Below, in pieces: positions 4,626 through 41,913 of a stretch of DNA of 64,000 nt (positions within the stretch are counted from its first letter, which is position 1; every line of letters begins with the position of its first letter). Under the pieces are notes generated by a model. That model did not search any database and was not told where the DNA came from. It saw nothing but the letters and a program-made list of their open reading frames with translations. The DNA comes from Bolinopsis microptera (taxonomy: Eukaryota; Ctenophora; Tentaculata; Lobata; Bolinopsidae), in contig NC_087077.1 of the NCBI RefSeq assembly GCF_026151205.1, positions 6,038,483 to 6,102,482 of the forward strand, given 5' to 3'. The position numbers were made by a program, and so were the translations under genes.

Positions 4626-7600
4626 CTAGGAAAACCATCCTGGAGCAAGCTTGTGTTTTACTGAGCTTCTCTCCTGGTCGCTAAACTCCAGAACTGTGAA
4701 TATTGCCAGCAAAATTTGTCTCCTCTCAGAACCACTCGATTTTAGGTACCTAGTAGGGAGGCAGTATTAGTAGGTACCTATCAGTAGGGAGGCAGTATTA
4801 GTAGGTACCTATCAGTAGGGAGGCAGTATTAGTAGGTACCTATCAGTAGGGAGGCAGTATTAGTAGGTACCTATCAGTAGGGAGGCAGTATTAGTAGGTA
4901 CCTATCACTATCAGTAGGGAGGCAGTATTAGTAGGTACCTAGTAGTAGGGAGGCAGTATTAGTAGGTACCTATCAGTAGGGAGGCAGTATTAGTAGGTAC
5001 CTAGTAGTAGGGAGGCAGTATTAGTAGGTACCTATCAGTAGGGAGGCAGTATTAGTAGGTACCTATCAGTAGGGAGGCAGTATTAGTAGGTACCTATCAG
5101 TAGGGAGGCAGTATTAGTAGGTACCTATCAGTAGGGAGGTAGTATTAGTAGGTACCTATCAGTAGGGAGGCAGTATTAGTAGGTACCTATCAGATGGGAG
5201 GCAGTATTAGTAGGTACCTATCAGTAGGGAGGCAGTATTAGTAGGTACCTATCAGTAGGGAGGCAGTATTAGTAGGTACCTATCAGTAGGGAGGCAGTAT
5301 TAGTACTAGTAGGTACCTATCAGATGATAACGTGGATTTTAGGTACCTATCAGATGATAACGTGGATTAATAAAATGGCGACAGGTAAGGTCACGAAATC
5401 AGGAATATGATCTGAATTCTGAAAAGATGGCGTAAAACGGATGTAAAAACTAAAATGACGAAGTTATCAAGCAATTTGATTATCTCGTTAGCAAAATTGA
5501 TTGGGTCATCAATGATTACGGATTACCCAATCATTAATCATGTGATAGCGTGCTACGACACTTTCTGTGCCAATCCAATCACCTGATCACACTGAATGAA
5601 TAAACTCGTTCTGCTTCATATCTCGGCAACAGCACCTTAAAACATGGATTGTGGATGTAATAAGAGATGTATGTAATGATCATGTTAATAACCTGAGCAC
5701 GATGTTTTTTAAATACTCCAAGTTAGCTGACTCTCTTGTAGAGTTCCGGATAAGCCGACTGGTTTCTTGTCTCAAGTTAGTCACCTCTCCCAGGTACACG
5801 TGCTCATTTCTCTCTTTCTCCCTAAGACTTTGCTCTAGAGTTTCTCTTGTTGCTTTCAGTTTCGTTAACTCTTTCTAGTTTGGTGTAAGAATGAGCTAAC
5901 TTAAGAAGTTAATAGAAGTAATCAAGTATCAACGAAACGGCCAAGTAGTATGAATTTCAATTACAGCACTATTATGTAATTAATTATACATCTTAGTACA
6001 GGTTGGGGGAGGGGGGCAGGTTCCCCTGTGCACAATATTACTCCCACTACACTACACTTTACTGGCAACTGGGTGGCGCTCAGCCTGTCATTCCGCCTAA
6101 ACTCTATTCTATGATTATGAACATAAATAAAATAGCCTGAGGTCCCCATGTAACAATACTATATATAATTGATTATAAAGTATTACCGTTATAAATGTGT
6201 GCTGTTGTTTGTAGAAAATCATGGTCCTGGGTACATTTTCCATCTCTACGTTAGACAGAAGTTCCCCCATCAAATTCCCTTCTTTCACATCAGGTTTTCT
6301 ACGGGGAATAGTACAAATTATGATGCGCTTCTACTTTCTGGGTATTAGCAGAAACCCGTCTAACTTTAAAGTTGTGTCAAGATATATAACAATCTTTATT
6401 AAATTTGTGATTTTGACACCACTTGGGGGTCCAAATTTCGGGACCTTAAGTTCTTCTTTTTTGGCAAATTTTTTATTTCTTCGCACTGGTCAAAAGGCCA
6501 TAAAATTTAAAGCATTTCACCCAGCCAAAAATGTTTCAATCTTATGTCCCTCACGGTTTTTGCGAAAAGTCGTGTTCTACATATATGGACACGTTCATTT
6601 GAGTTTGAGGATATTGGTAAACAAAAATAATAGCGTTTTTGACGATAGTGGCTTAATTTTGACATCTATTAACCTAGCACGTTCAGAAGTTCTGAACATT
6701 AGCCACGTAGCCCATCCTCCCATATGCACCGCTCAGAAAGAAAATCTATTGTTGTTAGGCACTATAATGTTTCAAATGTCACATTTTGTGTGACTTAGTT
6801 AACTGCAGTTGTCTAATTATCATTCCTCGGTCTGAAATATAGTAAATTAGGTCAATCTAACAATTATGATACAACATTGGTTAATGGGCACGGATCGAAC
6901 GGTTACAAGGCAATATTTGGGTAACTTTGTCACACTCATGATACCATACCTCTATTCTACTGTGAGGTGTCCTAAAAACCCTTTCAACTCATTATTTGAT
7001 GGTTGCTCTACCAATCATAGCCCTAAAATATGTTGTTTTGAATATATAGCTAATACAGGCACTCGGTTATTGGGAAATGAGGTTAATTCTGTCACAATAT
7101 ATGGAATTTAAAATTTTGGGCGAATTATTTATATCTGATTTTGGTTTGAAAGGCGGGAAAATTTTATATGATGACAATGTAGTTGATGCAAGTTAAGATC
7201 AGTTGATGTTAACATTGTCACAAAAAATTATACGAAATCGTAAATAGATTAAAAACAATGATTATAGAATGAAATAGTCTCTTATAATAACTCTTATAAT
7301 AACCCTTATAATAACTGATGTGACAAAGTAAACATGTCTTGCCCCTATTTTGAAGATCTATATTCTATACCTCTATTAGAATATTGTCCAGAACATCAGA
7401 GCTTAAGTTTAACAATTTTAGGTTAAATTTGTCAAAGTCACTAAAAATGTGACAAAATTAACTTTTCATGCCCCAACAATTTCAAGATAGTGTGTAAAAA
7501 TTAGCATAGGCTGCTTTATTACCTATATAAATCAATCCAAACTACAAAAAAATATATGTTAATGTGATGACGATTACCTAACTCTTATAATAACTGATGT

Positions 7601-40900: not shown

Positions 40901-41913
40901 ACGTTAATTAAACTATAATCTTTGGTGGCTGTACTTGCGCTCCTGTCTCGTGTTGAAACATTAATTAAACTATAATCTTTGGTGGCTGTACTTGCGCTCC
41001 TGTCTCGTGTTGAAACATTAATTAAACTATAATCCTTAGCTTGGTGGCTGTACTTGCGCTCCTGTCTCGTGTTGAAACATTAATTAAACTATAATCCTTG
41101 GTGGCTGTACTTGCGCTCCTGTCTCGTGTTGAAACATTAATTAAACTATAATCCTTGGTGGCTGTACTTGCGCTCCTGTCTCGTGTTGAAACATTAATTA
41201 AACTATAATCCTTGGTGGCTGTACTTGCGCTCCTGTCTCGTGTTGAAACATTAATTAAACTATAATCTTTGGTGGCTGTACTTGCGCTCCTGTCTCGTGT
41301 TGAAACATTAATTAAACTATAATCCTTGGTGGCTGTACTTGCGCTCCTGTATCGTGTTGAAACATTAATTAAACTATAATCCTTGGTGGCTGTACTAAGT
41401 ACTTGCGCTCCTGTCTCGTGTTAAAACATTAATTAAACTATAATCCTTGGTGGCTGTACTTGCGCTCCTGTCTCGTGTTGAAACATTAAGATAAGCACTA
41501 TTTCAGGTGACAGTTCAAGAAGCTCCTATGCAGCAGCTCCCTCCTCCTGAACACCAAGGTAACTTTTTCCTCATTAGTGGGTATTTAGTCTCGGCTAAAC
41601 ATATAAGCATTAGATTATATCAGAAGTCTCAAAAGCAAGTTAACAACATTTTTCAACTCTCCAGATTAAATAAATATAGTACTATGTTTTTACAGAAACC
41701 TTTGCAGTCACTGAGTCCAATACAGATAGAGGACAGCACCGTATGGACCCACTAGTTCTGCTTGTGGCAGCAGTATGTGGGATGGCACTGCTACTTCCTA
41801 CCTGGCAGGTGGATAGTTCCACTCTCCCACCTTATCTTCATCTTACAATCCACCAGAAACTGGTGGTGGCGTACGTCCTGGGACTCGTTACCATGGTAAT
41901 TCTACACTTCTAA
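37952..41913 (+). CDS. MOSPD1: MOSPD1/3-like protein: MSP domain plus two C-terminal membrane helices
   Basis: Exons 37952-38108, 38398-38606, 41507-41558 and 41696-41913 join in phase to 211 codons plus TAA, the usual length of vertebrate MOSPD1. Residues 19-52 ([31 protein letters not shown]) and 53-122 ([25 protein letters not shown]) form the Major Sperm Protein domain. Residues 159-174 ([16 protein letters not shown]) and 193-211 ([16 protein letters not shown]) are membrane helices with [11 protein letters not shown] between, a MOSPD1/3 signature. These are ER-membrane proteins whose MSP domain binds FFAT-like motifs. The start is the second of two ATGs, the first being out of frame. 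Intron 1 is an array of its own donor; intron 2 holds a 57-bp satellite and an antisense ORF. Confidence 0.95.
38083..38355 (+). repeat. 34-bp array of the MOSPD exon 1 donor, 8 copies
   Basis: Exon 1 ends CTTACACTCTAAAGTACAAAG|GTAGGT (38108). The same 25 exon bases plus GTAGGTGAC repeat at ~34-bp steps to 38350, giving eight AAAG|GTAGG donors. Later units read TTTAAGGTACAAAG. The array makes up about 240 of the 289 bp of intron 1. Read-through meets TGA within three codons. Confidence 0.93.
38685..39221 (-). CDS. Uncharacterised single-exon protein antisense in MOSPD intron 2
   Basis: 178 codons from ATG (with TAG just upstream in frame) to TAA. I do not recognise the family. It has a basic, serine-rich N-terminal part ([18 protein letters not shown]), a hydrophobic-mixed middle ([36 protein letters not shown]) and a basic C-terminus ([18 protein letters not shown]). 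No signal peptide or membrane segment. The composition looks protein-like rather than a repeat artefact, and the reading frame is the longest non-repeat, non-retroelement one outside the named genes. It may be a nested gene or an exon of a larger minus-strand gene. Confidence 0.5.
   Translation of the reverse strand: MMIDIREVTVSAPYKDTFVVTPQSGKSVSKPSRSCRNDKDSGSAPYLTWGFSTRGIEKLLPYSFLEDSSDLGMIHTIMGLLNVETISPIIQSRLINPFDRHSLKMQPHNLKPILKPHLVVESTNLQPIVKLRRNPRQSISTLSPSQQSLEKISEKENIWDKPRSVKKVKLWNLLSIGE
39775..41490. repeat. 57-bp satellite with 752-bp higher-order duplication
   Basis: About 30 copies of TGTCTCGTGTTGAAAC + ATTAATTAAACTATAATC + CTTGGTGGCTGTACTTGC. Unit variants (TCTTTGG, GAAACG, GCGCTACTG, the GGTGCTTTGG insert, the TTAGCTTGG insert) occur in the same order at 39950-40290 and 40702-41042, so a block of 752 bp was duplicated as a whole. 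The array ends 20 bp before the acceptor of MOSPD exon 3. Minus-strand open frames with a 19-residue period are a consequence of 57 being divisible by three. Confidence 0.95.

Follow-up and report, generated by a model that had tools for sequence, protein, structure and literature searches.

Minisatellites whose tandem unit spans an exon-intron boundary are known as mirages, and the paper said to have founded their study is that of Canestro in 2002. In introners, one sequence is dispersed over many introns of a genome. Mirages were named in amphioxus, where they are described in Adh3 and the globin genes and where intron gain from them was proposed (PMC3087553), and they are also reported for PGBD5 (PMC3902484). 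In a potato RdRp gene, a junction-crossing tandem duplication is described as the origin of a new intron (PMC4974935), while internal tandem repeats with units of ~30 bp are described as lengthening exons or introns in human segmental duplications (PMC2812944). Here, we analyzed a window of 64,000 nucleotides (C6:6038483-6102482) from the comb jelly Bolinopsis microptera, whose assembly holds 97.23% of its bases in 13 chromosome-scale scaffolds (PMC10232365), together with loci sampled from the rest of its genome. A first-pass annotation of the window had noted that splice junctions of unrelated genes, at donors and acceptors alike, are duplicated in tandem within their introns, and had supposed that no such system was described. 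The duplications were borne out, and the structure recurs across this genome. The supposed novelty does not stand, since the amphioxus arrays have the same structure, and ours add a further instance, in a comb jelly, of something already described. Among the open-licence papers listed in literature searches, none was seen to report such arrays in comb jellies; in another comb jelly, Tandem Repeats Finder (TRF) is reported to mark 13% of the genome as repeats (PMC8527503).

Window arrays were taken from a TRF listing at a score of 50 and their coordinates checked against spliced gene models, all of whose junctions rest on homology, phase, and GT-AG ends (Table 1). For the genome sample described below, an array was defined by a unit of at least 10 bp and a TRF score of at least 50, and was counted as crossing a junction if it included at least 5 exon bases. 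Seven junction arrays had been proposed, and in five of these the units do combine bases of the exon edge with the neighbouring donor or acceptor. The other two fell short: the copies at 36806-36885 in the phosphatase gene are a weak match without a TRF entry at score 50 and with an ambiguous exact acceptor, and the array at 11518-11590 includes only 2 exon bases. At the GCC1 acceptor 4749/4750, the TRF array ends 2 nt short of the exon; by eye, its units contain an ACTAAT-like and a pyrimidine-rich stretch and the TAG acceptor with 7 exon-start bases (TAG/GTACCTA; here and below, a slash marks the junction). The acceptor array starting at 16063 was resolved by TRF as 42 bp x 14.8 (16063-16694) and, at period 130, as 16063-16714. 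Since the donor array of the same intron abuts it, GCC1 intron 16778..16097 is repeat throughout, and the donor array of intron 18004..17749 occupies all but 22 nt of that intron. By TRF, four arrays in the window cross a junction, among 15 arrays in 17 introns, vs. 3.1 expected (P 0.35), and the count rises to five if the case at 4749 is included by eye. Two of these stretches were searched against the genome (264.65 Mb, 232 contigs), where each matched its own locus only; a mobile-element origin is therefore unsupported for both.

To place these arrays in context, kinesin, myosin, SNF2, kinase, and chaperonin families were searched in the genome and ~293 kb of loci taken; the protein kinase (PF00069) hits, among those listed mostly long single-exon matches, were left unused. 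Spliced models were produced with a purpose-written aligner, with kinesin and myosin loci forming the first set and SNF2 and later loci the further sets. Near-duplicate loci (L006, L031, L040, L042, and L058) were excluded from the counts, as were then 39 of 345 introns with a flank score below 8 or a length below 60 nt, leaving 306 introns (151,351 bp); the excluded rows contain three crossing arrays (L058, L060-061-029 intron 7, and L032-056 intron 5). The 306 introns hold 117 arrays, distributed over 77 of them. For the null expectation, each array was placed at random within its own intron, reaching at most one unit into either exon. Results showed that 10 of the 117 arrays cross a junction (7 at donors, 3 at acceptors) vs. 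8.4 expected (standard deviation 2.5; 4.2 at donors and 4.2 at acceptors), with 9 vs. 6.9 expected in the first set and 1 vs. 1.5 in the later sets pooled. An earlier control, based on the array density of intron interiors, had given 9 crossings vs. 9.3 expected at a score of at least 50; per-intron placement replaced it and left the conclusion unchanged. A sample of this power would probably reveal a two-fold excess, though not one of 1.3-fold. Within that power, junction arrays are no commoner than expected, which is the outcome that the first-pass annotation had itself named as telling against a distinct class of junction arrays, and such a class is not supported. Since crossing arrays are not depleted either, a duplication that rebuilds its junction seems to be tolerated to roughly the same degree as one in the middle of an intron. 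Within exons, by comparison, no array lay wholly inside 59,175 bp (score of at least 50), vs. ~46 expected at intron density. Ten crossings in 306 introns also suggest the rate at which duplicated junctions arise and persist in a minisatellite-rich genome, where they are raw material for intron sliding or gain.

One recent array birth, at a direct repeat, was observed in a pair of nearly identical loci, L057 and L058, which lie ~140 kb apart on opposite strands of contig C11. The acceptor TTTCAG/ACGAGTC is present once in L057 and three times in L058, at steps of ~72 bp that carry 33 exon bases. In L057, the 10-mer direct repeat CAACTATTTC has one copy in the intron and one in the exon, and these bound the segment that is tandem in L058. 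Direct repeats of at least 9 bp shared by the final 60 bases of the intron and the initial 40 of the exon were found at 4 of the 306 other acceptors, and one of these four belongs to a crossing array. The difference fits a tandem duplication between short direct repeats followed by amplification. Since the first L058 unit, like L057, is without three bases common to the other two units, stepwise growth of the array is suggested. The two loci also differ by 1.3 to 1.9 kb in the size of introns 2 (2743 vs. 812) and 8 (2050 vs. 719).

Taken together, we consider it probable that the arrays are ordinary short tandem duplications that arise at essentially random positions within introns and are tolerated where they happen to span a junction. 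A minisatellite would be born by a short local duplication, and where the duplicated segment straddles a junction, the exon-proximal copy would restore the original junction and presumably be the one used in RNA, while the remaining copies would become intron. With the original junction restored, no change of the protein has to follow, and the duplication could be tolerated. The same duplication wholly within an exon would alter the protein and be removed, so that selection would explain the scarcity of arrays in exons. Slippage or unequal exchange could later amplify the copies.

Several observations weigh against this reading. Among arrays with a score of at least 100, crossings numbered 9 vs. 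5.5 expected (P 0.07), and donor crossings alone 6 vs. 2.8 (P 0.05). In L057, a TRF array of 22 bp x 2.1 is exonic except for 1 base. The L057/L058 birth is one pair, in an intron that falls below the junction-confidence threshold and outside the counts, and the difference might come from two haplotypes or from the assembly. Finally, array edges lie near intron ends more often than expected: over all sets, 20 vs. 8.4 at donors and 21 vs. 11.9 at acceptors; in the window, 8 vs. 3.8 at either end (P 0.003); in the later sets, 7 vs. 3.1 at acceptors (P 0.02); and, where less than 250 nt of the intron is array-free, 15 vs. 6.1 at donors. Such edges are what would be expected if intron ends were favoured sites of tandem amplification, for example through R-loops or pausing of the polymerase at splice sites, or owing to the base composition that splice signals have, and if introns grew from their ends, as the first-pass annotation had suggested. 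The first set agrees with this (donor edges 18 vs. 6.2, acceptor edges 14 vs. 8.8 expected), and the acceptor excess persists in the later sets. However, the donor excess was lost in the later sets (2 vs. 2.1 expected in 121 introns), the distance windows had been picked after the first set was inspected, and crossing itself is close to random. The results on growth from the ends are mixed, and as an explanation of the arrays we regard it as unlikely. The wider proposal, in which tandem amplification is concentrated at the splice sites of this animal, so that introns lengthen from their ends, and its spliceosome reliably takes the outermost of dozens of near-identical sites, appears to us doubtful to a slightly greater degree.

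The number of copies can be large. In L028 intron 1, the donor is followed by 21 exact copies of its 16-mer at 40-bp steps; L032 intron 0 has 24 extra donor copies, 22 of them exact; and in L004 intron 5, the donor and 51 near copies (5 exact) at 33-bp steps make up to 52 near-identical donors. Over the ten counted cases, the copies found keep the splice dinucleotide at donors (109 of 109) and acceptors (46 of 48), in a search whose tolerance of up to 4 mismatches in 16 favours intact copies. This retention would agree with a role of the copies as alternative splice sites that serve regulation or vary protein length, as would an inner L058 acceptor, which by eye would add 24 residues, open and in frame. 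Yet 7 of the 10 counted cases have a unit length not divisible by three, the MOSPD units run by eye into an in-frame stop, and in amphioxus repeats of this sort are reported to leave splicing undisturbed (PMC3087553), so that we give an alternative-site function hardly any credence. Given correct protein models, the outermost (first) site must win. How the outer site wins among near-identical copies is an interesting question; such introns amount to experiments of nature in splice-site competition, and long RNA reads from this species would directly test the rules of site choice.

Most units had been said to center on AG/GT, and tandem duplication of AGGT segments had been put forward as a route to intron gain. 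Of the crossing cases in the sample, 2 of the 7 at donors and none of the 3 at acceptors had AG/GT, the background being 163 of 306 for donors and 87 of 306 for acceptors. An apparent richness in AG/GT was confined to the cases of the window (4 of 5), and overall the 6 of 15 cases compare with ~6.8 expected. Centring on AG/GT is therefore not supported. The arrays would be the remains of intron birth if, as in gain of the Rogers type, introns had been created by tandem duplication of AGGT-bearing exon segments, and GCC1 intron 16778..16097, which is made up entirely of exon-edge sequence in a donor array and an acceptor array and has AG/GT at both ends, has the look of such a case. However, introns gained in this way should lie between two copies of one duplicated AGGT exon segment, and among the 306 introns none has an array across both of its junctions; AG/GT is not enriched; and by eye TATTTCAG is present in the GCC1 acceptor units and not in the upstream exon end. 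Intron gain by this route, at these arrays, is accordingly very improbable, and ordinary duplication at effectively random places remains our preferred reading.

Other arrays in the same introns had been described as ordinary minisatellites that do not include the junction. This holds for two of them, which stop short of their acceptors (16935-17196 and 39788-41489; Table 1); the third, at 11034-11417, is not a local minisatellite, since it is part of a dispersed transposon-like element. The array and the bases beyond it (11034-11460; 73 genome matches) match a 940-bp insertion in L005 intron 3 that is absent in L006. A 9-bp target duplication, TGTGTCTTG, accompanies that insertion, whose terminal inverted repeats begin GGCAACTTGTACG; its sub-terminal arrays of TAAGACAACA are inverted.

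With respect to the genes themselves, 10 exons over 9 introns of GCC1 (minus strand) join into a single open frame of 460 codons in the spliced model, and further down one junction unites both halves of a GRIP domain (E 3e-14); the long coiled-coil part gave no Pfam match above the cut-off. The name GCC1 is provisional, based on the label of the first-pass annotation, the GRIP domain, and similarity. No in-phase join was obtained from the exon near 10332-10390 to the one that begins near 5873, and a small exon is therefore probably missing from the model. A GCC1 exon also contains an 18-bp x 3.9 array (15854-15924) encoding in-frame PPTTPD repeats; in contrast to the intron arrays, it is a coding minisatellite. 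For MOSPD (plus strand, 3 introns), the spliced model yields a complete protein with an MSP domain, and the phosphatase gene (minus strand, 3 modelled introns) has a His_Phos_1 domain. Elsewhere in the window are a two-pore potassium-channel-like gene, with two Ion_trans_2 stretches in a frame of 391 codons that occupies one exon (43638-44813), and a reverse transcriptase frame (54251-55618; RVT_1, E 3.1e-26), a retroelement remnant. The genome also has many ionotropic glutamate receptor genes with long unbroken frames (e.g., C12:11782391-11809362 and C6:9547809-9555444), with 32 PF10613 matches and several frames above 900 codons. Two of these receptors have as closest matches the chains "ML032222a iGluR" and "kainate-like protein", which we take to be from comb jellies; for one, E values to the two chains were 1.7e-109 and 8.1e-63, vs. 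3.6e-38 to the next receptor.

Table 1. Tandem arrays and related repeats in introns of the window (positions are those of the window).
Feature	Position	Strand	Basis and remarks
GCC1 last intron (5692..4750), acceptor array	4752..5305	-	TRF 31 bp x 17.7
Pair of 30-bp copies, at the end of the 4752..5305 array on its intron side	5310..5368	-	TRF and by eye; TAGGTACCTAAAATC inside, matching exon start
11-bp repeats of dispersed transposon-like element	11034..11417		73 genome matches
GCC1 intron 11586..10603, array from donor	11521..11588	-	TRF 35 bp x 1.9; 2 exon bases only
GCC1 intron 16778..16097, acceptor array	16063..16714	-	42/46-bp units; 34 exon bases, exon start 16096
GCC1 intron 16778..16097, donor array	16712..16802	-	TRF 26 bp x 3.5; 24 exon bases, exon end 16779
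GCC1 array without junction, ends 16 nt before acceptor	16935..17196	-	TRF 40 bp x 6.5
GCC1 intron 18004..17749, donor array	17771..18016	-	TRF 41 bp x 5.9; 12 exon bases, exon end 18005
Phosphatase gene, two imperfect acceptor-region copies, weak	36806..36885	-	By eye, ~23/25 bases
MOSPD intron 38109..38397, donor array	38083..38352	+	TRF 34 bp x 7.9; 26 exon bases, exon end 38108
MOSPD array without junction, ends 17 nt before acceptor	39788..41489	+	TRF 57 bp x 29.4

Among the described systems, introners differ from the junction arrays in their dispersal, since both of the stretches searched match their own locus only. Gain of the Rogers type shares with them tandem duplication near AG/GT at some junctions; here, however, arrays cross one junction only and AG/GT is not enriched. 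The potato RdRp gene likewise has a tandem duplication across an intron-exon boundary, but the new intron is potato's (PMC4974935) and none is shown here. The human internal tandem repeats, as described, have similar units of ~30 bp and a similar lengthening effect, yet half of them are coding (PMC2812944), whereas exons are almost array-free here. The closest likeness is to mirages. Their tandem unit spans the exon-intron boundary, as it does in four window arrays by TRF, in one more by eye, and in 10 of the 117 sampled arrays; both 5' and 3' boundaries are involved, as in our 7 donor and 3 acceptor arrays; and the unit of ~10 to 160 bp compares with TRF periods of 20 to 109 bp in 9 of our 10 cases, the tenth having a TRF period of 207 and a copy spacing of 53 bp. 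With regard to copy number between haplotypes, one acceptor in L057 stands against three in L058, on the same contig, in what may be paralogues or haplotypes. The arrays described here differ from mirages in belonging to another phylum, in reaching up to 52 copies, and in being known from genomic DNA alone; moreover, their frequency at junctions was measured against random placement, a comparison that does not appear in the relevant passages of the earlier reports.

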